This document shows positions 33,774 through 47,448 of a stretch of DNA of 64,000 nucleotides, one piece after another. The stretch's first letter is position 1; every line of letters begins with the position of its first letter. Source of the DNA: Pseudobdellovibrionaceae bacterium. Lineage in GTDB: Bacteria > Bdellovibrionota > Bdellovibrionia > Bdellovibrionales > Bdellovibrionaceae. A model generated the notes under the pieces. The model saw nothing but the letters and a program-made list of their open reading frames with translations, did no database searches and had not been told where the DNA came from. The DNA lies in NCBI GenBank assembly GCA_019637875.1, contig JAHBUW010000007.1, positions 124,001-188,000 on the forward strand. Reading direction: 5' to 3'. The position numbers and the translations under genes were made by a program.

Positions 33774-34607
33774 ATGGGAATGAGAATTTCGACAAACGTG
33801 TCTTCGATCAATGCGCAGCGTACACTCACGGCGTCGCAGCGTGAAATCAACAAGAGCATGGCTCAGCTGTCCTCGGGCAGCCGTATCACTAAGGCAGCGG
33901 ACGATGCTGCGGGTCTCGGGATTTCGGAAATGTTGAAATCGCAGATTCGCTCTTATTCTCAGGCATCGCGCAACGCGAACGACGCCATCTCGATGGTGCA
34001 AGTCGCGGAAGGTGGACTTGGTGAAATCTCGAATATCCTGACCCGTATGCGCGAACTGGGCATCCAGGCCGCATCGGACACTGTCGGCGACAAAGAACGT
34101 TCTTACTTGAACCTCGAAGTCAGCCAATTGAAAGAAGAAGTCCAACGTATCGCGAAGACGACCAAGTTCGGCAGCACGAACCTGCTCGATGGCACCGGAT
34201 CGAAATTCGATATCCAAGTCGGTATCAACAACGACAGCTTCGAAGATCGCATTTCGTTCGATTCGTCGGTCCTGAACGCGACGAGCGCGGAACTGGGCAT
34301 CGACGACGTGGACTACTCCAATAAAGAGGGCGCACAAGACTTCCTGATGGTGGTCGATGAAGCTCAATCGCGGGTTGCGGCTTACCGCGCTAATGTGGGT
34401 GCTCTGCAAAACCGCTTCTCTTCGACGATCGAAAACTTGGGCGCGCAACACGAAAACCTCTCGGCCGCGAACTCGCGTATCCGTGATGCCGACATCGCGA
34501 CCAGCACGTCGGAAATGGCCCGCAACCAGGTTCTGCTGAACGCTTCGACTTCGGTCCTCGCGTCGGCGAACCAACAGCCCCAGCTCGCGCTGAAGCTGAT
34601 CGGTTGA
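33774..34607 (+). CDS. fliC: Flagellin
   Basis: A 277-residue flagellin from ATG 33774. MGMRISTNVSSINAQRTL, SGSRITKAADDAAGLGISEMLKSQIR and C-terminal AANSRIRDADIATSTSEMARNQVLLNAS are the conserved D0/D1 helices; there is no variable outer domain. It is close to flagellin 2 and clearly different from flagellin 1. A GGAAGAG...CTCTTCC hairpin follows at about 34628-34650. Confidence 0.96.
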   Translation: MGMRISTNVSSINAQRTLTASQREINKSMAQLSSGSRITKAADDAAGLGISEMLKSQIRSYSQASRNANDAISMVQVAEGGLGEISNILTRMRELGIQAASDTVGDKERSYLNLEVSQLKEEVQRIAKTTKFGSTNLLDGTGSKFDIQVGINNDSFEDRISFDSSVLNATSAELGIDDVDYSNKEGAQDFLMVVDEAQSRVAAYRANVGALQNRFSSTIENLGAQHENLSAANSRIRDADIATSTSEMARNQVLLNASTSVLASANQQPQLALKLIG

Positions 34608-34748: not shown

Positions 34749-35132
34749 ATGGACATCCGTCACGCGATCGGATCACTGCTACCCACGAACCTTCGGAAGA
34801 AAGATCCGGTGGAGCGTAACATCAAGTCGGATTCGGCAACGGATCGCGATGGGAACGGGCAAATGCCCGGACAGGACAAGAACCAAGGCGAGCAAAAACC
34901 GCCGATGTCCGAGGAGCAGTTGAAAAAAGCGATGGATCATCTGAAGGGCCTGCCCGTCGTGAAAGACCACAACCTTTTGGTGGAGCTGCTCACGAATGAA
35001 GGCGGAAAGAGATTCGTGCTTCTGAAGGAACCGAACGGCAAGTTGATTCGCCGAATTCCCGAGGAAGAGCTGTGGACTCTGCAAGTCGTCAAAGAAACCG
35101 AGAAGGGCCAACTTCTTCGGAAGACCGCTTAA
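34749..35132 (+). CDS. flaG: FlaG-like flagellar protein
   Basis: A 127-residue protein. The first half is polar and poorly conserved; the C-terminal LLTNEGGKRFVLLKEPNGKLIRRIPEEELW matches the FlaG domain, where a D-x-x-G-E-x-I-R-Q-I-P pattern is usual. FlaG affects filament length in other bacteria. Placement between flagellins and fliD supports the call. There is no clear Shine-Dalgarno; a GTG near residue 21 is a possible alternative start. Confidence 0.75.
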   Translation: MDIRHAIGSLLPTNLRKKDPVERNIKSDSATDRDGNGQMPGQDKNQGEQKPPMSEEQLKKAMDHLKGLPVVKDHNLLVELLTNEGGKRFVLLKEPNGKLIRRIPEEELWTLQVVKETEKGQLLRKTA

Positions 35133-35229
35133 TGAAAGACGTTTCAGAATGAGACGTTTGCGGCATTTGTTTCCGAATGAGTCGATCGTCCCGCATAATG
35201 TGTCCAGGGGTAGCAACTTGGGGGCAGAC

Positions 35230-35907
35230 ATGGGAAGCGTTCGTTTTCTCGCGCTCGCGATCTTGATCTTGAGTTTTCAAAACGCCAATGCCAACAACGC
35301 CAATTGTTCCGACCTTTCGCCGGAAGCGAAGCAGAATATGCAGAGCTGGCTGAATAAGTGCGGATCGAAGCTCGCCAACAACGGTGCGGGCAAAGTCGCG
35401 ATCGTGGACATGGGCGGAAGCGAGCCCAAACTTTTCCTTTTGGACAAACAGACTTTGAGTTGTTCGCTGGCCGTTCCGGTCGAGATCGGTAAAAACAGCG
35501 TCGGACGTCCCCCGAAGGCCGGTAATGAAGCTGAAAGCAACATGACTCCGGCGGGATTTCACATCACTCGTTTGCATCAGGGCGAACGTTACGGACCAAA
35601 CAATTCTTTAGCGATGGACGGCACGGGCAGCGAGAACAACAACAGCCTCAGCCGCGCTATTTTGCTGCACGCCAAACAACCCGGGGTCAATACGATCGGT
35701 TGCATCGGCGTTCCCCCCGAGCATTTGAATACGGTGATGAACGAGCTCGGTACGGGCTCGGTGATTTATAATCACTTCCCAAATGAAAAGGGCGGCGATA
35801 GCCAAAACAACTGCGACGGTAAAGGCGCCGGAGCGCCGACGAACCGCAATTACCACGGCGGTCCCGGTCAATCGCAAGAGGGTTCGAGAACCCGAGGTCG
35901 GAACTAA
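35230..35907 (+). CDS. Secreted L,D-transpeptidase-like (YkuD_2/murein transpeptidase catalytic) protein
   Basis: ATG 35230 is preferred because it starts a signal peptide (MGSVRFLALAILILSFQNANA) and follows GGGGG; an open frame from 35149 has no signal. The 225-residue product has VAIVDMGGSEPKLFLLDKQT at the N-terminus of the domain and ILLHAKQPGVNTIGCIGVPPEHL with the His and Cys of the catalytic motif HA...(S/T)xGC. A peptidoglycan-modifying role in the periplasm is likely, possibly for flagellar passage through the wall given its position. Confidence 0.8.
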   Translation: MGSVRFLALAILILSFQNANANNANCSDLSPEAKQNMQSWLNKCGSKLANNGAGKVAIVDMGGSEPKLFLLDKQTLSCSLAVPVEIGKNSVGRPPKAGNEAESNMTPAGFHITRLHQGERYGPNNSLAMDGTGSENNNSLSRAILLHAKQPGVNTIGCIGVPPEHLNTVMNELGTGSVIYNHFPNEKGGDSQNNCDGKGAGAPTNRNYHGGPGQSQEGSRTRGRN

Positions 35908-36341
35908 TGGATCTTTTTAAAACGACGCTCTCGGCGGCGATGATTTTTGTATCCCTCTCTGCTTTCGCGAACGATCTGCCGGTGCCGCCGCCGACGGCGC
36001 ACGCCAAACCGGCGAAGCTCACGCCGGAGCAATATGCCGAGCTGATGGCGCTGAAGATCAATGCGGGCGCCAATGTTAAAGTGAAGTCCTATGATGCGAA
36101 GTCGAAAACCTTCGACATCATGATCAAAAATGAACCCGCCGTCGGCCCCAATACGACGTCGTTCGAGAACCTTCGGCGCGCCATGGGTGAGCCCACGGCC
36201 GCTCGCCGCATGGGAAATCCTGGGGACTGGGTTGGACGGGAAATGACGCTGGTCCAGGACCTGATTTTGCTGCCGGATGCGCCCGCGGTTCCGGATAAGC
36301 CCGTGGCGAAACCCGCCACCCGTCCGGGAAAAAGCCGCTAA
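35907..36341 (+). CDS. Secreted small protein of unknown function
   Basis: A 144-residue product whose ATG overlaps the stop of the preceding gene. A signal peptide (MDLFKTTLSAAMIFVSLSAFA) precedes a Pro-rich segment and a short conserved-looking region (NVKVKSYDAKSKTFDIMI), ending in a Pro/Lys-rich tail. No domain is recognised. Co-translation with the transpeptidase-like gene suggests a shared function. Confidence 0.7.
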   Translation: MDLFKTTLSAAMIFVSLSAFANDLPVPPPTAHAKPAKLTPEQYAELMALKINAGANVKVKSYDAKSKTFDIMIKNEPAVGPNTTSFENLRRAMGEPTAARRMGNPGDWVGREMTLVQDLILLPDAPAVPDKPVAKPATRPGKSR

Positions 36342-36475: not shown

Positions 36476-37861
36476 ATGGCGGCAATTCGTTTCTCGGGAA
36501 TGGCCAGTGGTCTTCCCCCGAACATTGTAGAGCAGATCATGGATGCGGAGCGCATCCCGGTGAAGCAAATGGAGGCCAAGAAGGCGGACGAGGACAACAA
36601 GTTGACCCTCGTGACCGATCTGGAGACCAAGGTGAACGCCATCACCAAAAGCATCGGGGAAATGGTCGGCATCCGCGGATTCGCGAATCACAAGTTCGTT
36701 TCCTCGGACACGAACGTCATCGACGGCGCCGTCGACCCGGAAAAGGTCGTGACCGGCGATTGGCAGATCGAAGTCGTACAGCTCGCGCAGAAACCCGGGG
36801 CGATCAGCAACGGCTTTCCCGACAAAGACAAAACTCAGCTGGGCGTCGGTTACTTGCGCTTCGAAACCACGGAAGGACGCAAGGACGTTTACATCAGTCA
36901 GTCGAATAATACGCTCCAAGGCGTGGCGAACGCGATCAACTCCTCCAACGTGGGCCTGCGCGCGCAGGTCATGAACGACGCCAAGGATGCGGACAATCCC
37001 TTCCGTTTGATGGTGACGGGAATGGCGACGGGTAAAGGCAACGAAGTCGAGTTCCCGAAGATCTACATGCTGGATGGTGATCGTGACGTCTTCTTCGAAG
37101 AATCGCGTCCCGCGCAGAACGCGATCGTCAAAATGGACGGATTCCAGATGGAGATTCCCGAGAATAAACTCGAGGACGTCATCCCCGGCGTGAGTTTGGA
37201 TTTGAAATCGACCGCGCCCGGCCGCGCGATCAATTTGTCCGTGAAAGAAGATCACGAAAAGATCACGGGCAAGATCAAGGAATTCGTCGATTCGTACAAC
37301 GCGGCCCTGCAGTTCATTCAGGACCAGCACAAACTTCAGAAGGACAAACGAACCGGTAAAGAACGTTTGGGCCCTTTGGGCGGTGATAGCCTGGTGCGCT
37401 CGACCGAGTCGGCGCTTCGCCGCGTGATCATGGCGCCGCAGCTCGGAACCGGTAGCACGATCGGCCGTATCGCCGAGCTCGGGATCGAATTCGGCCGTAA
37501 CGGAACGCTGTCCTACTCGGAAGAAAAATTTCAGAAGAAATTGAACGCGGATCCGCGGATGGTCGCGAACTTTTTGCGCGGCGACGGATTCGCGACGGGA
37601 TTCATTCCGACTTTGAAGCGTGAGATTTCGAATCTGACGAATTCGGCTTTCGGACCTTTGGCCAATCGTAAGCGGGGTCTGACGGATAAGATCAATCAGA
37701 TCGACCGTCGGATCGACATGAAGGAACGGCAGCTCGAAAAGAAGGAAGAACAGCTGCGCTCGAAATTCGCGGATTTGGAAAGCAAGATGTCCAATCTGCA
37801 AAGTCAGGGTGCGGCCGTGGGTGGAATCGCGGCGGCGGCGAAAGCCGGCGCGGGCGGGTAG
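36476..37861 (+). CDS. fliD: Flagellar filament cap protein
   Basis: I start at ATG 36476 (MAAIRFSGMASGLPPNIVEQIMDAERIPVKQM), which matches the FliD N-terminal helix; the open frame from 36413 is non-homologous. The 461-residue product has the FliD_N region, a central region around residues 90-300 and a C-terminal coiled coil (KINQIDRRIDMKERQLEKKEEQLRSKFADLESKMS), the usual FliD layout. It caps the growing filament and helps flagellin fold. It is followed by fliS. Confidence 0.94.
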   Translation: MAAIRFSGMASGLPPNIVEQIMDAERIPVKQMEAKKADEDNKLTLVTDLETKVNAITKSIGEMVGIRGFANHKFVSSDTNVIDGAVDPEKVVTGDWQIEVVQLAQKPGAISNGFPDKDKTQLGVGYLRFETTEGRKDVYISQSNNTLQGVANAINSSNVGLRAQVMNDAKDADNPFRLMVTGMATGKGNEVEFPKIYMLDGDRDVFFEESRPAQNAIVKMDGFQMEIPENKLEDVIPGVSLDLKSTAPGRAINLSVKEDHEKITGKIKEFVDSYNAALQFIQDQHKLQKDKRTGKERLGPLGGDSLVRSTESALRRVIMAPQLGTGSTIGRIAELGIEFGRNGTLSYSEEKFQKKLNADPRMVANFLRGDGFATGFIPTLKREISNLTNSAFGPLANRKRGLTDKINQIDRRIDMKERQLEKKEEQLRSKFADLESKMSNLQSQGAAVGGIAAAAKAGAGG

Positions 37862-37959: not shown

Positions 37960-38370
37960 ATGAGTAATCCGTATCAGAAGTACAAACAGACTCAGGTGAC
38001 CAGCGCCAGCCGCGAGAAGCTGCTGCTCTTGATGTACGAAGGTGCGATCAAGTTCACCAAGAAGGCGATCACCGCGGCGGAAGAGAAGAACGTCGCCGAA
38101 CGTTGCACCAACATCGGTCGCGCGTACGATATCGTCAGCGAGCTGAACAACACGCTCGATCACAAAGTCGGGGGGCCGATCGCGGCGAACCTCGAGCAAT
38201 TGTATATGTTTATCACCGATCAGTTCACGAAAGCGAACATCAACGGCACGGTCGAGCCTTTACAGAACGCGCTGAAGATTCTGGAAACCCTGTACGAGGG
38301 GTGGGTCCAGGCGGTCGAGCAAGTGAAGAAACAGGAATCCGCGCAAGCGGGAACGGGCGCCAAGGGCTGA
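37960..38370 (+). CDS. fliS: Flagellin export chaperone
   Basis: A 136-residue helical protein. NPYQKYKQTQVTSASREKLLLLMYEGAIKFTKKAI and later RAYDIVSELNNTLDHKVGGPIAANLEQLYMFITDQF match FliS along their length. It binds the flagellin C-terminus in the cytoplasm and prevents premature assembly. The gap from fliD (about 98 bases) contains no recognised promoter. Confidence 0.96.
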   Translation: MSNPYQKYKQTQVTSASREKLLLLMYEGAIKFTKKAITAAEEKNVAERCTNIGRAYDIVSELNNTLDHKVGGPIAANLEQLYMFITDQFTKANINGTVEPLQNALKILETLYEGWVQAVEQVKKQESAQAGTGAKG

Positions 38371-38444: not shown

Positions 38445-38861
38445 TTGCGAGTCATCCAGCTGCTTCAAGAGAAAAATCACTATCTCGAGAAGTTCTACAC
38501 CCTGAACGAAACCGAACTCTTGAACTTCGCTCAGGCGAACTTCGACGGCCTGGAGACCTTCTACCAGACGCGTGAGCGTATCTTGGAGATGCTTGCTTAC
38601 ATCGATCGCGAACTCGAGAAGTGCGACCTGGGACCGCATATCCAGATTTCGATGGAAGACCGCGACCTGGTGCGCGAGTGTTTGGCGACCAAAGAGGGTT
38701 ACGTTAGCCGCATCCTGGCCCAGGATCTGGAAATCCTTTCGTGCATCGAGAAGGCGAAGTCCGCCATCATCCGCGAGCTGCAAGAAGTTCGTCGCGCGCG
38801 CAAGGCCGTTTCGGGTTACCGCTCGGGTCCCGCGCCCAGCCGCCTGAACGAAGAAGCCTAG
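38445..38861 (+). CDS. FlgN/FliT-like flagellar chaperone
   Basis: A TTG start at 38445 has AAGGAGGG a few bases upstream and fits better than an ATG-less extension from 38418. The 138-residue helical product (VIQLLQEKNHYLEKFYTLNETELLNFAQANFDGLETFYQTRERIL) resembles FlgN/FliT-type export chaperones in size, helix pattern and position after fliS. Family assignment is by pattern and context only. Confidence 0.7.
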   Translation: MRVIQLLQEKNHYLEKFYTLNETELLNFAQANFDGLETFYQTRERILEMLAYIDRELEKCDLGPHIQISMEDRDLVRECLATKEGYVSRILAQDLEILSCIEKAKSAIIRELQEVRRARKAVSGYRSGPAPSRLNEEA

Positions 38862-39042: not shown

Positions 39043-40176
39043 GTGCAGACGTCCAGTCTAGATTTCGTTATTGATCAAGAGCGTGCGCACAACGATGAAC
39101 ACGTTGGCGTTCGTTTTCCCATTGCGTCCGCCCCGGTCGAAGGCGCGGAGCGCCCGATGGTCCACGCGGAGCGTCCGGTCGCGCGCGCACAGAGCGCGGA
39201 AACTCGTCGCCAGGCGATCGCCGAATTCGAAAATGAATTTTCGGACGTGCCCGCACTCGTCGGCAACGCCGAAGTCTTAGCGCAGAATCAAGAGCGCGCG
39301 CTGGCGCTTGTGCTTTTGCGCCAAGCGATGAGCGAGGATAGCTTTCACGTTTCCTCTTTGCGCCGAATTTATAATCTGCTGCCCGGGGGCGAGTGGACCC
39401 TGGCCGAGCGGACCGCGATCGCCGAGACTTTGTCGACGACGACGAAGCTCGCCAGCGATACGCTGCGCTTGGCGAAACTCGAGTACGAGAAAGGCGACCT
39501 GGGACGCTCGCTCGAAATGTACTTCGAGGCGGCCGCGCAAATTCGTGAAGAGGACCAAACCGTTTTTGAAATCTACAAGGACATCGGGAACATTTACGTC
39601 CGCCAAGGCGACTTCGACGGCGCGGAAGAGTATTACCACAAGGCTTTCGCATTGAATCCCGACAGTGACGCCCTTCACGTCAATCTGGGGACGCTCGAAA
39701 TCCAGCGTCAAGAATGGGGCGCCGCCCGTGACCGTTTCCGTTTCGCACTGGGACTCAACGAAAGAAACGACAAAGCCTGGGTCGGTCTGGCGTTGGCGCA
39801 TTATCACTTGGGCGACACCGAGCTGGCTTTCGGTAACTTGGAAAAGGCGATCGACCTCGCTCCCGGCAATCGGACGGCGGTTCTGCTGCTCGCCGGCTGG
39901 GCCGAAAAGCACAATCGCACGGAAGAGGCGATCAACGCTTTGGAAAACTATCTGGGGGAAGTTTCTTTCGACGAGGACATGTCCCTGGCCCTGATCCAAC
40001 TTTTCTGCCGCGAGAAGAATTACTTCTGCGCGAAATTTGAAATTGAACGCACGTTACTTTGGAACCCGACGCGTCCCGATCTTTTCGAACTGCTGAAGAA
40101 GATCGAAGACCTCGAGGGCGCGGAAGCCGAACCGGTTTTCAAAAAGTCGGGCTTGGCCGGGGAGATCTTCGGGTGA
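39043..40176 (+). CDS. TPR-repeat protein, first gene of glycosyltransferase series
   Basis: GTG 39043 is supported by GGGGGAAG upstream; the product has 377 residues. The first 75 residues are polar; from about residue 130 several tetratricopeptide repeats appear (LAKLEYEKGDLGRSLEMYFEAA, KDIGNIYVRQGDFDGAEEYYHKAFALNPDS, VGLALAHYHLGDTELAFGNLEKAIDLAPGN). TPR proteins next to GT9 genes often act as scaffolds or are part of filament-modification clusters. It overlaps the next gene by GTGA. Confidence 0.85.
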   Translation: MQTSSLDFVIDQERAHNDEHVGVRFPIASAPVEGAERPMVHAERPVARAQSAETRRQAIAEFENEFSDVPALVGNAEVLAQNQERALALVLLRQAMSEDSFHVSSLRRIYNLLPGGEWTLAERTAIAETLSTTTKLASDTLRLAKLEYEKGDLGRSLEMYFEAAAQIREEDQTVFEIYKDIGNIYVRQGDFDGAEEYYHKAFALNPDSDALHVNLGTLEIQRQEWGAARDRFRFALGLNERNDKAWVGLALAHYHLGDTELAFGNLEKAIDLAPGNRTAVLLLAGWAEKHNRTEEAINALENYLGEVSFDEDMSLALIQLFCREKNYFCAKFEIERTLLWNPTRPDLFELLKKIEDLEGAEAEPVFKKSGLAGEIFG

Positions 40177-40757
40177 GTCGCATTCAGTTTCAAGGCGAAC
40201 AAGTCCTGCGTGATGGACGGAGTTTACACTCGCCGCGCGATCCCGCGCGCGAGGCCGGCGTTTGGGTCGCCGGACGTCCCGCACGCGTTCAGGGCTTGGT
40301 TTTCGTTTTGGGACTGGGCGCCGGTCATCACGTGCGCGAGTGGGCTCGTCAACGACCCGATCTGACGATCGTGGCCATCGATTTCGATCAAGAGCTTTTC
40401 CATCACATGACGATGATCGACGACGTGGATGCGGCGGTCGATTTAACGGCCGGGATATATGGATTGTCGCTGGAGCACGCCATGATCGGTCGTGGTGAAG
40501 CGTTGATCGATCACGGGTATTCGGTCGTGCGGTTCCGTCCCGCGTGGGGGGGACGCGAAACCGAATTTCACGCTCTGGAAGATATTTTGCTGGATCGTTC
40601 GATTTTGCATTTGCGGAGTGATCTTGTGGCCGGCGGCGCGCAGGCATGGCCGCGGGGCCTGGATCTGAATATCAAAAGCCTGACGGCGGCGGGCGTGGAA
40701 ATCGTCGATCTGGAAGACCGTAAACTGCTGATGGCGCTGCGGGAGCTCGTGGCATGA
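40173..40757 (+). CDS. Rossmann-like protein resembling motility accessory factor (Maf/DUF115) N-terminus
   Basis: GTG 40173 overlaps the TPR stop; the longer frame is a shadow. The 194-residue product has a glycine-rich strand LVFVLGLGAGHHVREWARQRPDLTIVAIDFD, the pattern of the Maf-associated N-terminal domain or a SAM-type Rossmann. Maf proteins transfer pseudaminic or legionaminic acid to flagellin, but the catalytic Maf domain is not evident here. Assignment is tentative. Confidence 0.55.
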   Translation: MSRIQFQGEQVLRDGRSLHSPRDPAREAGVWVAGRPARVQGLVFVLGLGAGHHVREWARQRPDLTIVAIDFDQELFHHMTMIDDVDAAVDLTAGIYGLSLEHAMIGRGEALIDHGYSVVRFRPAWGGRETEFHALEDILLDRSILHLRSDLVAGGAQAWPRGLDLNIKSLTAAGVEIVDLEDRKLLMALRELVA

Positions 40758-41902
40758 GAATCCTGGCTTTGTCCCTTCTTCGTTTAGGAGATCTGTTTCA
40801 TCACGTGCACCTGTTGCGCGAGATCAAACGTCGCGCGGAAGCGACGACCCGTACGGGTTCGGTGGAACTGCACGTCCTTGCCTTTACGGATACGAAAGCC
40901 GCGGAAAAGCTTTTCCCGGAATTCCGCTTTCACTTCATCCCGCGTGCGGAGTTGCAGACCGAGCTGGTCGAGCGTCACCGGAGCTGGCGCCGCGCCCTGC
41001 AGCTTTTGAAAACGTCGATTCGCGATCTGAATGAATACGACTTCACGCAAACCTACAATCTGACGCACACTTCGTTTTCGGGGCGGATCATGGATTTGCT
41101 CGAGTGTCCCGAAAAGAAGGGGCTTCGCTTCGAGGACGGCCGCGCCGTTTTGGACGGACAAGGTCTGCGTTACGTGAACGAGATCTGGGCGTTCGAAAAG
41201 GAACCCCTGTTCAATTGGATCGACGCCACCGCGGCCTCGGTCGATACGCCGGAGCCGCCCATCATGGCTGCGGACGCGCGTGAGCGCGGTGAAGTTTGGC
41301 TGCAACCTTTGACCAGCGATTCGAAAAAGAATTGGTCCATTCCGAAGTGGCGTGAACTCGCGCGCCGCCTGCGCGCGCAGAATACGAAGTTCCGTTTCAT
41401 CGCGGCGCCTGGCGAGGGGGCCTTGTTGGCCACGGCCTTGGGTGAAGACGTTTACGAAATGACTTTCCAAGCCCTGCGCGAAACGCGTGAACACTGCGCG
41501 CTGCTCGTCGCCGGCGATACGAGCGTCTTGCATTTCGCGGTGCTGGAGAAGATCCCGGTCATGGGGATTTATTTGGGCCCGGCGAATCCGTTCAAAACTC
41601 CACCCCGTCAAAAGGGCGCCGGCATTTGGTGGTCGCCCGTGGGCTGCTCGCCTTGCGGCCATCGTTCGACCTGTAGCCAGGCCACGCACGCGTGCGAAGA
41701 GGCCCTTGGCGCCGAGGAAGTCGAACTGGCCATTCTTGCGAAACTTAAGAAAATCGACATCGGATCACACCTGACCCAAGCCCATGCGCTTTATGGAGAA
41801 GTGCAGAGTTTCGGTCGGGTGCATTTCAGGAGGAATGATGCAGAAGCAAAACCCGGGCGCAGCCCTGGAAGCTTATCTGTTGCAGGCGCTCGCCCGGCTT
41901 GA
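40754..41902 (+). CDS. Glycosyltransferase family 9 protein (heptosyltransferase-like), first copy
   Basis: A 382-residue GT9-type protein. N-terminal ILALSLLRLGDLFHHVHLLREIKRR is the acceptor-side start, and C-terminal LLVAGDTSVLHFAVLEKIPVMGIYLGPANPFKTPP matches the nucleotide-sugar region. GT9 members transfer heptose to LPS, and some glycosylate flagellin or adhesins. With two copies next to flagellar genes and no LPS core genes, filament modification is inferred. It overlaps its neighbours at both ends. Confidence 0.82.
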   Translation: MRILALSLLRLGDLFHHVHLLREIKRRAEATTRTGSVELHVLAFTDTKAAEKLFPEFRFHFIPRAELQTELVERHRSWRRALQLLKTSIRDLNEYDFTQTYNLTHTSFSGRIMDLLECPEKKGLRFEDGRAVLDGQGLRYVNEIWAFEKEPLFNWIDATAASVDTPEPPIMAADARERGEVWLQPLTSDSKKNWSIPKWRELARRLRAQNTKFRFIAAPGEGALLATALGEDVYEMTFQALRETREHCALLVAGDTSVLHFAVLEKIPVMGIYLGPANPFKTPPRQKGAGIWWSPVGCSPCGHRSTCSQATHACEEALGAEEVELAILAKLKKIDIGSHLTQAHALYGEVQSFGRVHFRRNDAEAKPGRSPGSLSVAGARPA

Positions 41903-42035
41903 GAAAGCCAGTGAAGCGATCAGAAAAACCCAAGGCTATACGCGTGAAACCGCGAAGGTCCGTATTTTAACTGAACTCGTACGTGAACAGGTGCCGCATG
42001 AAAATACTCGCGATACAACTCGCCAGACTCGGTGA
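41838..42035 (+). CDS. Small helical protein between the two GT9 genes
   Basis: A 65-residue product from ATG 41838 (ATG 41835 is equally possible) behind CAGGAGG. ALEAYLLQALARLEKASEAIRKTQ is an amphipathic helix. It overlaps GT9 copy one by 65 bases and copy two by 38 bases in different frames. The strong ribosome-binding site argues for a real gene; function is unknown. Confidence 0.65.
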   Translation: MQKQNPGAALEAYLLQALARLEKASEAIRKTQGYTRETAKVRILTELVREQVPHENTRDTTRQTR

Positions 42036-43491
42036 TATCTATCAAAGCTGGCCGGGCCTGCGTGCGCTGAAGCGAATGCTTCCGGACGCCGAGATTCACG
42101 TCTTGGCGCGTCCGCGTTTCATGGGCGCCTTCGAAGGTTTGGATGCCGTTTCGAAGGTGAAGGTCTTTCCGTCGCAAGACATTCTATCCGCTTACGGAGC
42201 GGGGGATGTCGCCGCCACGGCTGCCGAAGGACAGATTCTGACCCCGCGCGATCAGCTCGCGGTCGCGAAAATTGAAAACGTCGTGCGCGATCTGGAAGAC
42301 GAAAGCTACGACTGGATCATCAACTTGTCCTTTTCGCCGTTGTCGGCGGATCTGACGTCGTTGCTCAGCGGACCGGACACGAAGGTGTCGGGTTACACGC
42401 GTTTTGACGACGGGTATCTCAATCTACCCGATGCGATGAGCGCGTATTTCTTCGCGCAGGTTGGTCATGACCGTGGCAATCGCTTTCATCTGTGCGAGAT
42501 CTTCGGCACGCTTTGCGAAGTCGATTTGACGCCCGCGGATTGGCGCGCCCCGGTTCTGCCGGCGGTCCGCACGGAGCTGCCCGGTGAGTATATCGCCGTG
42601 CACGTCGGAGGATCCGAGTCGCACAAATCGATCTCGGTTTCGAAATGGATTTCGATTCTGCGGCACTTGCGCGGTTTGCAGCCGTTCAAGTTCGTTTTGA
42701 TCGGCGGTCAAGAAGACGCCGACAAAGGCCTGCAGCTGCAATCTGTCGCGCCTGACGGCGAGGTGCTGAATCTGGCGGGGCAGCTGTCGCTGCTCGAGAC
42801 CATGTCGGTGATCGCGAACGCGAAGTGTTTGATTGGTCCCGATAGCGCGCCCATCCACATGGCGTCGTTGACGGGAACGCCGACGCTGAATCTGAGTGTC
42901 GGTCAGGTCAATCACTACGAAACCGGTCCCCGCGCGGCGGGCTCGGTCGTGCTGAAAGCGGCTTCCGAGGATGAGCTGATGTCGAACGTGATCGGGGACC
43001 GCTTCATCGAAATGGTGCACGGTCTGCGGTATCCGTTGGGAACGATCGAAGTGAAGCCGGGAACGCCCAGCTACACGGGTTCGACCACGCGCGAGGCGAA
43101 TTTCGTCTGGGACTTCATGCAGGCGATCTACATGGGAACCCAGTTCCCCGCCGTGGAAGAATTGATCTTCCTGGAAGGGATCAAGCAGCTGGCGGACGTG
43201 AATTCGTTCATGCTCGAGCAGCTGGAAGGCGTCCGCACGGTTGAGGATTTGCAAAACCGCAACGCGCTTTTGCAGCGTGGTGAGGAAGTGATCGAGACCA
43301 TCGCGAAATTGGTGCCGGCATTGGCGCCCCTCGTGCGTTGGTACCAAACCGAGAAGGTTCGGGTCGGTCCGCAGCCCTTGGATCGCGTGCTGAGTCGAAA
43401 TATCGAGATCCAGCGCCTGCTTCAAGGCGTGATCGAGATTTACAAACCGGGTGGGGCTCCGGCCACGCAGCCCGAAAAGGATGCCTTATGA
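41998..43491 (+). CDS. Glycosyltransferase family 9 protein, second copy with long C-terminus
   Basis: ATG 41998 begins ILAIQLARLGDIYQSWPGLRALKRMLP. The 497-residue product has the GT9 core (KFVLIGGQEDADKGLQLQSVAPDGEVLNLAGQLSLLETMSVIANAKCLIGPDSAPIHMASLTGTPTLNLSVG) in residues about 1-330 and an extra 160-residue helical region (ADVNSFMLEQLEGVRTVEDLQNRNALLQRGEEVIETIAKLV) not found in heptosyltransferases. It overlaps the next gene by ATGA. A flagellin or envelope glycosyltransferase is likely. Confidence 0.8.
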   Translation: MKILAIQLARLGDIYQSWPGLRALKRMLPDAEIHVLARPRFMGAFEGLDAVSKVKVFPSQDILSAYGAGDVAATAAEGQILTPRDQLAVAKIENVVRDLEDESYDWIINLSFSPLSADLTSLLSGPDTKVSGYTRFDDGYLNLPDAMSAYFFAQVGHDRGNRFHLCEIFGTLCEVDLTPADWRAPVLPAVRTELPGEYIAVHVGGSESHKSISVSKWISILRHLRGLQPFKFVLIGGQEDADKGLQLQSVAPDGEVLNLAGQLSLLETMSVIANAKCLIGPDSAPIHMASLTGTPTLNLSVGQVNHYETGPRAAGSVVLKAASEDELMSNVIGDRFIEMVHGLRYPLGTIEVKPGTPSYTGSTTREANFVWDFMQAIYMGTQFPAVEELIFLEGIKQLADVNSFMLEQLEGVRTVEDLQNRNALLQRGEEVIETIAKLVPALAPLVRWYQTEKVRVGPQPLDRVLSRNIEIQRLLQGVIEIYKPGGAPATQPEKDAL

Positions 43492-44135
43492 TTACGTTGA
43501 GATTTTCCCAAGAGCAACTGCACTCACAGTATCCGGGTTGTCAGACGTTATCTGAGCTGTTCCGCGCGGTCGAAAAGACCGCTGAACACGATGGGCGGGT
43601 GGTTTGTCAGTTCCGGATCAACGGCGTCAACTTCACCGAAGCCGATGAGAAGAAACTCGAACCTCTCAGCATGCGCGAGGTGAACCTCGTCGAAGTCTTG
43701 GTCGATACTCCAGAAAATCTGCTGAATTCCGTCATCGGGAACTGGATCGAGGAACTTCCGCGTATGGTCATCCAAAGCGACGGTATTTCGACGGCGCTGC
43801 GCGAGGACGGCTTCAACGTCCAGTATACGCCCATCGTGCGTTTGATCGACGCGTGCCAGTTTCTGACCGAAAGTTTGGTGTCGATCAAAAGCTTCCCGAA
43901 CCTCAAGGGCGTTCTGGACGAAGACGATTGGGAGAAGAGCACCGCGCAGATGCAAAAAGCCATCAGCGAGACGCTCACCGCCTTCGAAAAGAAGGATTCC
44001 AACTGGGTGGCCGACGTGATTGAATATGACCTGGCGAACTGTCTGCAGCAATGGCAGGACGTTCTGAAGGGTCTGCATGGAAAGCTCAGCTCAGGCGGCC
44101 ACTTTTCGGCCTCTGGTCCTGCGGTTCTCCCGTAA
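43488..44135 (+). CDS. Conserved-looking soluble protein, unknown function
   Basis: A 215-residue product from ATG 43488, coupled to GT9 copy two. Its predicted structure is alpha/beta at the N-terminus (ITLRFSQEQLHSQYPGCQTLSELFRAVEKTAEHDGRVVCQFRINGVNF) and helical at the C-terminus. I recognise no domain. The last 59 bases overlap the kinase gene, so it is part of the coupled series. Confidence 0.65.
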   Translation: MITLRFSQEQLHSQYPGCQTLSELFRAVEKTAEHDGRVVCQFRINGVNFTEADEKKLEPLSMREVNLVEVLVDTPENLLNSVIGNWIEELPRMVIQSDGISTALREDGFNVQYTPIVRLIDACQFLTESLVSIKSFPNLKGVLDEDDWEKSTAQMQKAISETLTAFEKKDSNWVADVIEYDLANCLQQWQDVLKGLHGKLSSGGHFSASGPAVLP

Positions 44136-46140
44136 GGGAACCGCCGGGATCGTTCGTACATCGGCCACGAAGGCGGCTGAAGCGCGCACGTCATCCGGGC
44201 TCGGCTTCGATTGGGCCGAGCTCGTTACGCAGGACTCCGAAGTCATTTCTCAATACTTACGCGCGGGGCAAGTGGCGGTTTTGGTCGTCGACCAAGATCT
44301 GGACCCGCAATTGGCGCACCTGACGGAATGGGTCGGCGCATCCCCGGGTAGCATTCGCATTTTGATTTCCGAACATGCCGATCTGCATTTGATCCGCCAA
44401 GCGATCAACCGGGGACGCATCTACCGAATCGCGCAGTCGCACGACGAAGTGGATGAGCTCGTCGAGGCGGGCCTGCGCGAATTCCACCGCGAGATTCAGC
44501 GGGTGGAGCTGGTGCGCGAGTCCGCGCGCCAGAACCGTGAACTCGAAGAACTCACGCTGAGCCTGGAATCACGGGTCGAAGAACGGACGCAAAACATCCT
44601 CGTCTCGAAAGAGCAGGAAGAGGACAAACTCAATCGCATCCGGCGCCTGGTGAAATTCATCAAGCAGATGACCCAAATCAGCTCGATCGAAGAGCTGCTT
44701 TCGGTGATTCGCAATGATTTGCGCGGCTTTCACCACGTCGTTTCGCCGATCTTGATTTTCCCGGTGGGCGTCGACGAACACAACGTCGTCTATTTTTCCA
44801 AGACGCAGATTCAACTGCGCACCCTCGGCGCGGGTTTCCGCGCGGTGAAGTCGGGACAGCAAAGTTTGGGCGGCGAGGACGACACGCTGCCGGGCCTGCT
44901 GGCGAACGTGCTCGTTCGTCCCGTCGCGAAGCTTCTGCGGCTCGAGATCGAATTGCAGAACCGCCCGGCCCTTTTGGTCGTCGAGCACACGGGGAACGCG
45001 CGTGAGCTGAAGGCGCTCGAGAATCATTTGATCGAACGCCGCAAACCCTTCGGGATGAGCCTGGACCGTCTGCTCCTCGAGATGGAGAACAACTTCAGCT
45101 CGTACCGTTGGGAAAAAACCTTCGATAACTTGAAGAGTCCCATCTCGATCATCGATCGGCAGATGTCGGTGTTGCGCTCGAACCGGCAATTCAACGCCGG
45201 GGCGGGCGCGGTCGCGAACGGCCCCACGGAGCATCGCCGCGGCTCTTGCCACCGCATCTTCGCGGGGCGCGAGGCCTTGTGCGAGGGCTGTCCGGTGCCG
45301 CAAGTGATGGAAACGGGGTTGACCCAAACCGGAGTGGTGCAGGCGGGCGGTCAGGCCTTCGAAGTCCACTCGTATCCGATTCATTTGCAGCACGGTGGAC
45401 CGATCACCAACATCGTGAACATCTACGTCGACATCACGCCCCAGCGCGAGCTGCAGCGGCGGCTCTTGCAAAACGAGAAGATGAGCGCGATCGGCTTACT
45501 TGCCGGCAATATCGCGCACGAGCTGAACAATCCCCTGACGGGGTTGCGGTCGCTCGCGCAGGTGCTCGCGCTGCAAGTCGAGCCGGAAGGGACGATGGCG
45601 CAGGATTTGAAAGAAATCGAAAAGGCCTCGGCGCGCTGTCAGACGATCATCCGCAATCTTTTGGATTTCACGACTCCGGGCGCCCAGCCGCTGCAGACGA
45701 CCACCATGGATGCCATCGTCGAAAAGACTTTGCCGTTCTTGAAGTCGATGCTGCGCAATCACCGCTTGGACCTGCAGCTTCACGCCGAAAAAGCGAACAT
45801 CGAGGTCGAACCCAACCTGATCCAGCAGGTCGTTTTCAATCTGATCAACAATGCTTGCCAGGCGATGAAGAAAAGCGGCACGTTGGGGCTTGAGACCCGC
45901 GTGCAGGACGGCGAGATCGTGTTGACCGTCAGCGATACGGGCGGGGGCATTCCGCCGGAAGTGCAATCGCGAATCTTCGAGCCCTTCTTCACGACGAAAT
46001 CCGAAGGGCACGGGACGGGATTGGGACTGAGTCTTTCGAAAGAGATCGTGGAAAAATTCGGTGGCCGCATCGGCTTTGAAACCGAGCCGGGGACGGGGAC
46101 GCGTTTCTTCGTCCGGCTTCCCGTGAAAGGACGAGCATGA
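44077..46140 (+). CDS. Sensor histidine kinase with degenerate receiver-like N-terminus and PAS-type domain
   Basis: A 687-residue protein. Residues about 40-130 look receiver-like (VAVLVVDQDLD, IRILISEHADLHLIRQAINRGRIYRIA) without the acidic pocket, followed by a coiled coil (LELTLSLESRVEERT), a GAF-like or sensory region, and a PAS region with a Cys motif RGSCHRIFAGREALCEGCPV. The kinase core is complete: phospho-acceptor His481 in GNIAHELNNPLTGL, N-box LINNACQAMKK, DTGGGIPPE, FEPFFTTK and GHGTGLGLSLSKEIV. There are no membrane segments, so sensing is cytoplasmic. The Cys cluster could bind metal, heme or redox signals. Confidence 0.88.
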   Translation: MESSAQAATFRPLVLRFSRKGTAGIVRTSATKAAEARTSSGLGFDWAELVTQDSEVISQYLRAGQVAVLVVDQDLDPQLAHLTEWVGASPGSIRILISEHADLHLIRQAINRGRIYRIAQSHDEVDELVEAGLREFHREIQRVELVRESARQNRELEELTLSLESRVEERTQNILVSKEQEEDKLNRIRRLVKFIKQMTQISSIEELLSVIRNDLRGFHHVVSPILIFPVGVDEHNVVYFSKTQIQLRTLGAGFRAVKSGQQSLGGEDDTLPGLLANVLVRPVAKLLRLEIELQNRPALLVVEHTGNARELKALENHLIERRKPFGMSLDRLLLEMENNFSSYRWEKTFDNLKSPISIIDRQMSVLRSNRQFNAGAGAVANGPTEHRRGSCHRIFAGREALCEGCPVPQVMETGLTQTGVVQAGGQAFEVHSYPIHLQHGGPITNIVNIYVDITPQRELQRRLLQNEKMSAIGLLAGNIAHELNNPLTGLRSLAQVLALQVEPEGTMAQDLKEIEKASARCQTIIRNLLDFTTPGAQPLQTTTMDAIVEKTLPFLKSMLRNHRLDLQLHAEKANIEVEPNLIQQVVFNLINNACQAMKKSGTLGLETRVQDGEIVLTVSDTGGGIPPEVQSRIFEPFFTTKSEGHGTGLGLSLSKEIVEKFGGRIGFETEPGTGTRFFVRLPVKGRA

Positions 46141-46511
46141 CCCGGGCGTTGATCATCGACGATGAACCCTTGGTGCGGCGTTCGCTTGAGCGCGTATTGC
46201 AGGTGTCGGGCTTCGAGGTTCAGCAGGCGGCCGATGGGCTGACCGGGCTGCAGATGTGGCTCGATCAGAAACCCGACGTGGTGCTGCTCGACGTGCTGAT
46301 GCCGGGTCTGTCCGGACCCCAGGTGCTGGAAAAAGTCCCCAGCGAGGTGAAGGCCAACTGCAAAATCATGATGATGTCGGCGTTCACCGGCGAATTCTCC
46401 CAGACGAAGGCCCATGAACTGGGCGCGCACTTGTTCGTGGCGAAACCTTTCGATGATATCTTTGAGGTCGTGAAGAAGGTGAAGACCTTGTTAGGCCAGG
46501 AGAATTCATGA
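46137..46511 (+). CDS. Single-domain response regulator
   Basis: A 124-residue CheY-like receiver overlapping the kinase by ATGA. The acidic pair IIDDEPLVRRS, phospho-Asp52 in VVLLDVLMPGLSG, and Lys in FVAKPFD are conserved. No output domain is attached; signalling probably passes to the adjacent PilZ-like protein or another partner. Confidence 0.92.
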   Translation: MTRALIIDDEPLVRRSLERVLQVSGFEVQQAADGLTGLQMWLDQKPDVVLLDVLMPGLSGPQVLEKVPSEVKANCKIMMMSAFTGEFSQTKAHELGAHLFVAKPFDDIFEVVKKVKTLLGQENS

Positions 46512-46861
46512 GTGCCGTCTACCCCATCGCCGCGTCCATACTGACTCCGGCGAGCCCGACGCCCGTACGGGGCGAAATCTTGAAGCTGACCAATCTCGGG
46601 TTTTTGGTTCAAGTGGCCACCCCCCAGAACTGGCAGACGGGGGACCGGATGCAGGTGCAGTTCGAGCTGCCCGGGGTGGCGCGCGATTACGACGAGCCCG
46701 TTAAAGTCATCAGGGCCTACCTGAAGTGGGTTCAAGGCCCCTCTGAGAAGCTGAAAGTGCAAATCTTTGAAATGCACTTTTTGAGTTTGGCCGCCTCGAA
46801 AAAGTTGGTTATTGATCAGTTCGTCGCCGCTCACAAATCCAGCGCCGACGAATCTGGATGA
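46508..46861 (+). CDS. PilZ-like small protein
   Basis: A 117-residue protein coupled to the regulator gene. VRGEILKLTNLGFLVQVATPQNWQTGDRMQVQFELPG has the beta-barrel pattern of PilZ domains, with RG and TNLGF resembling the two ligand motifs in weakened form. If cyclic di-GMP binding is lost, the domain could still act as a docking module. Position after a kinase and receiver suggests output function. Confidence 0.55.
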   Translation: MSAVYPIAASILTPASPTPVRGEILKLTNLGFLVQVATPQNWQTGDRMQVQFELPGVARDYDEPVKVIRAYLKWVQGPSEKLKVQIFEMHFLSLAASKKLVIDQFVAAHKSSADESG

Positions 46862-47448
46862 GAATCATTTCTGGTAAGTATCGGGGTCACGCCCTGGTTT
46901 CATTTTCCGCCTCGCATATCCGCCCGACCACCGATCGCGTGAAAGAGAGCCTTTTCAACATCTGGCAGAACCAGATGGAGGGCGCGCGCGTTTTGGATCT
47001 CTTTTCGGGAACGGGGAACTTGGGCCTGGAAGCGCTTTCGCGGGGCGCCGCCAGCGTGCAGTTCGTGGACGCGCATCCGAAGTCGATCCAGATCCTGCGG
47101 CAGAACGTCGAAAAGCTGAAGCTGACCGAAGACCACCGCATCATGACGGCGGACGTCTTTCATTTTTTGAAGCGTTACAAAGACGAGCCCTTCGATTTGA
47201 TCTTCATCGACCCTCCGTTCACCGAAGCCATCGCCGACAAGGTCATGGGGGCGGTGGCCCGCAGTTCGAGTTTTCACTCTAACACCCTGATCGCGATTGA
47301 ATCGGGGCGGCGAGAGAAGATCGGCGAAGACTACAAGACCCTCATTCGTTATGATCATCGTGAATTCGGTGACAAGGTGCTGTCCCTGTTCCGCGCGAAG
47401 GACGTTGCGGAAACGGACGCCGTGCCGGATTCGGCTCCGACAGAGTAG
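46858..47448 (+). CDS. rsmD: 16S rRNA (guanine(966)-N(2))-methyltransferase
   Basis: A 196-residue enzyme with MRIISGKYRGHALVSF and IRPTTDRVKESLFNIWQ at the N-terminus, SAM-binding VLDLFSGTGNLGLEALSRGA, and catalytic LIFIDPPF. It methylates G966 of 16S rRNA. Its ATG overlaps the PilZ-like gene by ATGA, joining a housekeeping gene to the flagellar and signalling series. coaD follows, a common neighbour. Confidence 0.95.
   Translation: MRIISGKYRGHALVSFSASHIRPTTDRVKESLFNIWQNQMEGARVLDLFSGTGNLGLEALSRGAASVQFVDAHPKSIQILRQNVEKLKLTEDHRIMTADVFHFLKRYKDEPFDLIFIDPPFTEAIADKVMGAVARSSSFHSNTLIAIESGRREKIGEDYKTLIRYDHREFGDKVLSLFRAKDVAETDAVPDSAPTE

Follow-up and report, generated by a model that had tools for sequence, protein, structure and literature searches.

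A conserved GT9 gene block beside the flagellins of Bdellovibrionota, a candidate cytoplasmic flagellin O-glycosylation system

Introduction

Maf proteins (PF20157 + PF01973) combine an N-terminal Rossmann domain with a catalytic domain and are encoded at flagellin loci; their modification is cytoplasmic and precedes export (PMC4065374). FlmG, which is also cytosolic and encoded at flagellins, joins a tetratricopeptide repeat (TPR) domain that binds flagellin in Caulobacter crescentus (PMC7591256) to a GT-B-type glycosyltransferase (GT). The GT9 family is represented by the heptosyltransferases WaaC, WaaF and WaaQ of lipopolysaccharide (LPS); TibC and the bacterial autotransporter heptosyltransferases (BAHT) are GT9-like enzymes that modify proteins. 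Here we describe a block of nine consecutive + strand open reading frames (ORFs) at positions 39043–46861 of a window of 64,000 nucleotides (nt) from Pseudobdellovibrionaceae contig JAHBUW010000007.1. All numbering refers to this window, whose genome is 99.6% complete. The block begins with a TPR protein, ends with a PilZ-like protein and includes two GT9 enzymes, GT9-1 and GT9-2 (Table 1). We consider it probable that in Bdellovibrionota the block serves flagellin O-glycosylation in the cytoplasm and does so with GT9 enzymes.

As composed, the module fits none of three known systems, since it lacks the catalytic domain of Maf and the fusion of FlmG and does not group with the LPS heptosyltransferases. 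It resembles Maf in its position at a flagellin locus, in the proposed modification before export and in a 194-aa (amino acid) protein, hereafter Maf_N, that is homologous to the N-terminal Rossmann domain of Maf. However, PF01973 is found neither in this protein nor in the window's genome, GT9 enzymes are present alongside instead, and a full nonulosonic-acid synthase is missing. As in FlmG, a TPR module and GT-B-type glycosyltransferases occur together at the flagellins, but here the TPR (39043–40176) and GT (40754–43491) functions are encoded by separate genes, there are two GT9s and no pseudaminic-acid pathway, and the TPR gene is missing in one family of a deeper branch of the phylum (f12). 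WaaC, WaaF and WaaQ share the GT9 family and the N-terminal G-D motif with the block enzymes, whereas separate clades, scores under the equivalog cut-offs, a helical C-terminal extension of GT9-2 and the flagellar gene context set the latter apart. A four-cysteine cluster is common to TibC/BAHT and GT9-1, but the cysteine spacing differs, the context is not that of an autotransporter, and there is no evidence for a dodecamer. The module would therefore represent a variant alongside Maf and FlmG.

Conservation of the gene order

Successive genes of the block overlap by 4, 4, 65, 38, 4, 59, 4 and 4 nt, in agreement with the original prediction, made from the letters of the window, of nine genes in a row that overlap or touch. 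The PilZ-like gene overlaps rsmD by a further 4 nt, and the gene run extends into rsmD and then coaD. The flagellin gene, fliD, fliS and a FlgN/FliT-like gene all lie upstream. Domain searches with the window proteins placed the GT9, HisKA/HATPase_c, receiver and TPR domains above the Pfam cut-offs, while the Maf-like and PilZ-like proteins matched no curated family above cut-off. No promoter was found by a sigma-70 promoter scan.

Profiles built from the window genes were used to label 28 related loci. Nearly all labelled loci of sufficient length have the order fliC-(DRDxNGQ protein)-fliD-fliS-flgN-TPR-Maf_N-GT9-1-GT9-2-bundle-kinase-receiver-(PilZ)-rsmD-coaD-aminotransferase, where bundle denotes a helix-bundle protein. 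The part from flgN to rsmD is present in full, with or without PilZ, in 36 of the 49 distinct loci that span it, and one further locus departs from it solely through a split kinase. The order fliD-fliS-flgN-Maf_N-GT9-GT9-bundle-kinase-receiver is also found in f12, without TPR and with no rsmD found nearby. Because the same order recurs across many families of the phylum although the proteins are mostly only ~20–50% identical, conservation of the block is more than chance, and the order is not confined to one strain, which would have spoken against the original prediction.

A pattern scan seeded with GT9-2 (the alignment A1 being too diverse for seeding) covered one genome for each of ~85,000 species and required exact short motifs. 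It recovered 71 loci. Almost all have titles that place them with Bdellovibrio relatives, B. bacteriovorus strain kdesi among them; one is titled only Proteobacteria and one Streptomyces. The last, a bin with the title Streptomyces griseus (L068, CALQIT020000016.1), is evidently a mislabelled public record, plainly of a Bdellovibrio relative by this locus. The nearest named GT9-2 locus belongs to a Bdellovibrio sp. bin (52% identity). The scan did not return f12, so that it tests confinement to the phylum only weakly. In strain kdesi (L133:9381–12144, NZ_CP102930), ~1.54 kb net are missing relative to locus L048; the gap spans the end of GT9-1, the small overlapping gene of the block and the start of GT9-2, and both GT9 frames are cut (243 and 278 aa). 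It is possible that this locus is a natural mutant of the module.

Association with flagella

Of 336 genomes that encode flagellin, 175 have a strong Maf_N match (E<=1e-8; genome counts made by hand), against 0 of 33 genomes that do not (Fisher 1.5e-10). Within family f4 such matches occur in 21 of 32 flagellin-bearing and 0 of 15 flagellin-less genomes (1.4e-5). Since the genomes are related, these p-values overstate independence, but several genera are without both flagellin and Maf_N. Together with the position beside the flagellins, this co-occurrence makes the flagellar connection suggested by the original prediction a strong one. Four genomes of genus g3, in the window's own family (G002, G021, G027, G031), have 4–8 flagellins each, no GT9-2 orthologue and a very weak Maf_N match at best; the whole module has probably been lost in this genus.

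The protein modified might not be flagellin but another one of the flagellum or the cell surface (the cap, the hook or a secreted one). In some loci fliC lies farther from the block than fliD does, and TibC and other autotransporter heptosyltransferases show that proteins besides flagellin can be substrates of GT9-like enzymes (PMC4358343). However, Maf_N tracks flagellin, and glycosylation systems of flagellar loci, Maf and FlmG among them, usually modify flagellin (PMC7591256); we regard a different acceptor as quite unlikely.

The two GT9 enzymes

That the block encodes two GT9 enzymes, as first proposed, is confirmed by PF01075 scores of 47.8 and 41.9 bits against a cut-off of 22. Alignments reveal that the GT9 catalytic motifs are retained in both, including the N-terminal G-D motif and the donor-site motifs. 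Against the LPS equivalogs TIGR02193/02195/02201 the two proteins reach 25–49 bits, with cut-offs of 134–185; the six other GT9s of the genome are also under these cut-offs, yet score higher (66–104 bits). In a tree of 69 GT9 proteins, made by a quick method, with long branches and WaaQ unplaced, GT9-1 and GT9-2 form two separate clades, each with a positional counterpart from f12, while WaaC, WaaF and the six other GT9s of the genome fall in a third group (support 99). Judged by sequence, the two enzymes are thus two old clades, orthologous across loci and apart from the LPS heptosyltransferases. Grouping with the latter had been named as an observation that would contradict the proposed flagellin glycosylation, and an assignment of either copy as an LPS enzyme is unsupported by this tree. 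The solved structural relatives of GT9-2 are WaaF, WaaC and one GT9 of unknown role, and its profile matches the WaaF structure 1psw at 2.5e-12. The cysteine cluster of GT9-1 has the form CxxCx6Cx6C; a TibC-like iron finger was rejected on this spacing, as the TibC cysteines are at 339/342/358/370 (PMC4358343).

The main alternative to flagellin glycosylation arises here, because GT9 enzymes are classically LPS heptosyltransferases. The two GT9s might act on a lipid-linked sugar and provide the flagellar sheath with its own LPS, and the block would then follow flagella because the sheath does; the sheath LPS of B. bacteriovorus has indeed been reported to be different in fatty acids (PMC7175336). 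However, that difference concerns fatty acids and not sugars, the TPR, Maf_N and chaperone neighbours indicate a protein substrate, and the clades and scores described above separate the enzymes from those of LPS. A role in sheath LPS therefore appears rather improbable.

The stand-alone Maf N-domain protein

Members of the Maf_N family share the motif L.S..dP..EA..W, followed by vlGlGaG.H. The Pfam model of the Maf N-terminal domain, PF20157, matches 16 of 52 members (best 3.5e-6), and methyltransferase models match fewer; the window's own 194-aa protein has no PF20157 match. In a profile-profile comparison with full-length Mafs of family f28, Maf_N aligns with their N-terminal Rossmann domain at 92–95% probability. 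Its predicted model, with a predicted local distance difference test (pLDDT) of 83, has a methyltransferase/spermidine-synthase-like Rossmann fold, and a fold search gave class I methyltransferases and spermidine synthases as generic matches, with a Z of 9 at best. No solved Maf was among the matches listed, which excludes nothing. The term "Maf-like" in the original prediction is therefore apt for the N-terminal Rossmann domain, at the level of the family, but not for the catalytic domain. A canonical Maf elsewhere in the window's genome was also considered and rejected, as PF01973 has no match there.

In family f28 (L188, L189; genomes G360-G364), full-length Mafs are present in several copies, some directly beside unusually long flagellins (~500–520 aa). 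The presence of full-length Maf beside flagellin in this family suggests that the Maf and GT9 systems substitute for one another within the phylum.

Proposed partners of the enzymes

Of the 49 loci, 42 carry Maf_N together with GT9-1 and 7 carry neither, and no locus has just one of the two. The median spacing is -4 nt both from TPR to Maf_N and from Maf_N to GT9-1. GT9-2 is kept in loci where Maf_N and GT9-1 are both lost. In four loci without these two genes (L081, L096, L101, L105), another ORF of ~151–163 aa, alike among these loci, lies between TPR and GT9-2.

The bundle protein has no match to a Pfam family. Its model (pLDDT 93) consists of a small alpha/beta part and four helices, and comparisons gave generic four-helix matches only, among them a weak match to a FliS-flagellin complex (6gow, E 0.32). 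In four loci without a separate bundle gene, a longer GT9-2 ends in the C-terminal helices of the bundle protein (E 1e-7 to 3e-4).

A small gene at 41838–42035 overlaps GT9-1 by 65 nt and GT9-2 by 38 nt, and is preceded by AGGAGG at 41828–41833. Searched against 7,791 small ORFs, its profile picks out a single copy per locus in 76 loci. In 64 of these the copy is at the start of the labelled GT9-2, including loci without Maf_N and GT9-1. Outside the GT9-2 overlap the first, second and third codon positions show identities of 0.41, 0.53 and 0.31, a coding pattern, although the alignment was made on protein. Its TR..TR C-terminal tail is not independent evidence, because conservation of the GT9-2 N-terminus in part dictates this end. 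The sequence comparisons show that the 65-aa gene is real; its product has no Pfam match of note.

The kinase, receiver and PilZ-like tail

The kinase, which is without a hydrophobic segment, and the single-domain receiver form a two-component pair, with the H-box and the receiver phosphoacceptor motifs conserved. The first 140 residues of the kinase (44077–44500) resemble, by eye only, a degenerate receiver domain (AINRGRIYR stretch) and have no Pfam match. The pair travels with the module, f12 included, and might regulate the modification. It is also conceivable that the tail of kinase, receiver and PilZ-like genes has a regulatory role unrelated to the modification and is linked to the glycosylation genes by the operon alone, which would be compatible with flagellin glycosylation by the enzymes. 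In locus L090 neither kinase nor receiver accompanies the enzymes, and many loci have no PilZ-like gene. However, kinase and receiver overlap their neighbours by 4–59 nt, and they come after the enzymes also in f12, where rsmD was not found beside them. We therefore hold an unrelated tail to be doubtful.

The last gene had been called PilZ-like and taken as a possible cyclic di-GMP input. The resemblance of the window's small protein to PF07238 is sub-cut-off (E 0.16), and 37 copies from the loci were compared. Neither [D/N]xSxxG alone nor RxxxR plus [D/N]xSxxG is present in any of the copies (0/37 each), and cyclic di-GMP input through PilZ was rejected.

Sugar donor

An ADP-heptose synthase domain is above cut-off in all eight genomes tested. 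In the same set gmhA reaches its cut-off in only three, and it was not found in the window's genome. A full NeuB match is present in only two of the eight, and the window's genome has a weak partial match alone (E 3e-8, positions 57–238). Nonulosonic acid was therefore rejected as the donor and is unlikely in this genome, while an ADP-heptose-type donor is plausible.

A possible mechanism

If flagellin is the acceptor, the TPR protein would hold new flagellin as the TPR domain of FlmG does in Caulobacter, and the two GT9 enzymes would add one or two sugars to it before export. The core enzyme may be GT9-2, together with the product of the small overlapping gene and the helix-bundle protein, and GT9-1 with the stand-alone Maf N-domain may perform a second step which some lineages have dropped. 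Modified flagellin would then be handed to FliS and the FlgN/FliT-like chaperones encoded just upstream, and the kinase and single-domain receiver would tune the modification to the state of the cell. The acceptor, the order of steps and the binding role of the TPR protein are our inferences. By hydropathy the module proteins all appear soluble, in keeping with a modification that, like those by FlmG and Maf, takes place in the cytoplasm ahead of export.

Several observations weigh against flagellin glycosylation by the block. No report of a flagellin glycan was found in the literature searched. The B. bacteriovorus flagellins of 274–282 aa run at 29–31 kDa (PMC2791853), positions that leave room for a light modification at most and are no proof of one; FliC5 and FliC6, which are of equal length, run at 29 and 31 kDa (PMC2791853). 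The evidence for Maf_N comes from the family level and from profile comparison; when the Maf_N profile was run as a plain hidden Markov model against proteins of the Maf loci, nothing matched. The absence of TPR from f12 points the same way. The link to flagellin also runs in one direction, as many flagellated relatives are without Maf_N. Some such genomes (for example G010, G017, G058 and G267) retain GT9-2, but others, for example in genus g3, are without it too. Because Maf_N, and in some also GT9-2, is missing from many flagellated genomes, the module is to be seen as a flagellar accessory that is not required for flagella. On balance, the flagellin glycosylation that the original prediction had assigned to this module gains from the conserved order, the non-LPS GT9 clades and the flagellar link, while its Maf-like component has to be corrected to a homologue of the N-terminal domain without the catalytic one.

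Coordinates and neighbouring genes

Besides the one listed in Table 1, the genome has seven further flagellin_N matches, eight in all. Between flagellin and fliD, a small protein with the motif DRDxNGQ (34749–35132) is conserved in 22 of 29 loci. Two ORFs of 252 and 144 aa with signal-like starts (35149–36341) are also located there; they were matched in none of the other loci examined and are an insertion private to the window's lineage. The downstream gene rsmD is probably not part of the system.

Table 1. Features of the block and of its surroundings, in window positions
Feature	Position	Strand	Basis
Flagellin (fliC), likely acceptor	33777..34607	+	PF00669 match at G000:C7:157786; profile label
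fliD (filament cap), conserved upstream neighbour	36479..37861	+	Position, conserved synteny; profile label, known fliD order
fliS (flagellin chaperone), upstream neighbour	37960..38370	+	Conserved in 27/29 loci
FlgN/FliT-like chaperone gene, directly before block	38445..38861	+	PF05400 FliT E 4.6e-4, PF05130 FlgN E 0.01, both sub-cut-off; position conserved
TPR protein of 377 aa with GTG start (alternative start 38998), putative scaffold for flagellin	39043..40176	+	TPR families above cut-off; absent in f12
Stand-alone Maf N-terminal-domain homologue, 194 aa, without catalytic domain	40173..40757	+	PF20157 at family level; profile-profile comparison; model pLDDT 83
GT9-1 glycosyltransferase, 382 aa	40754..41902	+	PF01075 E 1.5e-12; own clade; always with Maf_N
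Conserved 65-aa gene overlapping GT9-2 start	41838..42035	+	One homologue per locus in 76 loci; codon-position pattern; alignment
GT9-2 glycosyltransferase, 497 aa, helical C-terminal extension	41998..43491	+	PF01075 E 9.4e-11; alignment; own clade
Helix-bundle protein, 215 aa, proposed GT9-2 partner	43488..44135	+	No Pfam match; model pLDDT 93; fusions to GT9-2
Soluble histidine kinase (PAS-HisKA-HATPase_c)	44077..46140	+	PF00512, PF02518 above cut-off; H-box conserved
Single-domain response-regulator receiver	46137..46511	+	PF00072 E 1.1e-24; acidic pocket, Asp, Lys conserved
PilZ-like small protein without c-di-GMP motifs	46508..46861	+	PF07238 E 0.16, sub-cut-off; presence varies between loci
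rsmD (rRNA methyltransferase), conserved downstream neighbour	46858..47448	+	Synteny in Bdellovibrionia

Significance

For Bdellovibrio, flagellar motility is important in finding prey. In the literature searched, no flagellin-modifying system was reported in this genus, no paper was found that discusses the HD100 genes after fliS, and no transposon or locus-tag literature was found on the module genes. As fliD and fliS of HD100 are bd0611 and bd0612 (PMC9140294), the module is expected after fliS there. We suggest, tentatively, that the block forms a third type of machinery for flagellin glycosylation in the cytoplasm, one that would be old in Bdellovibrionota. The Maf N-domain, apart from catalytic Maf, would be accessory to the GT9s, the protein of the small overlapping gene would be a dedicated partner and the helix-bundle protein another, and the module's own kinase and receiver would control the flagellin sugar. 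If flagellin glycosylation by the block is correct, a GT9-based route would join Maf and FlmG, and the unstudied genes that directly follow fliS (bd0612) in a model organism amenable to genetics would gain a function. The module might then also exemplify flagellin modification controlled by a two-component pair.

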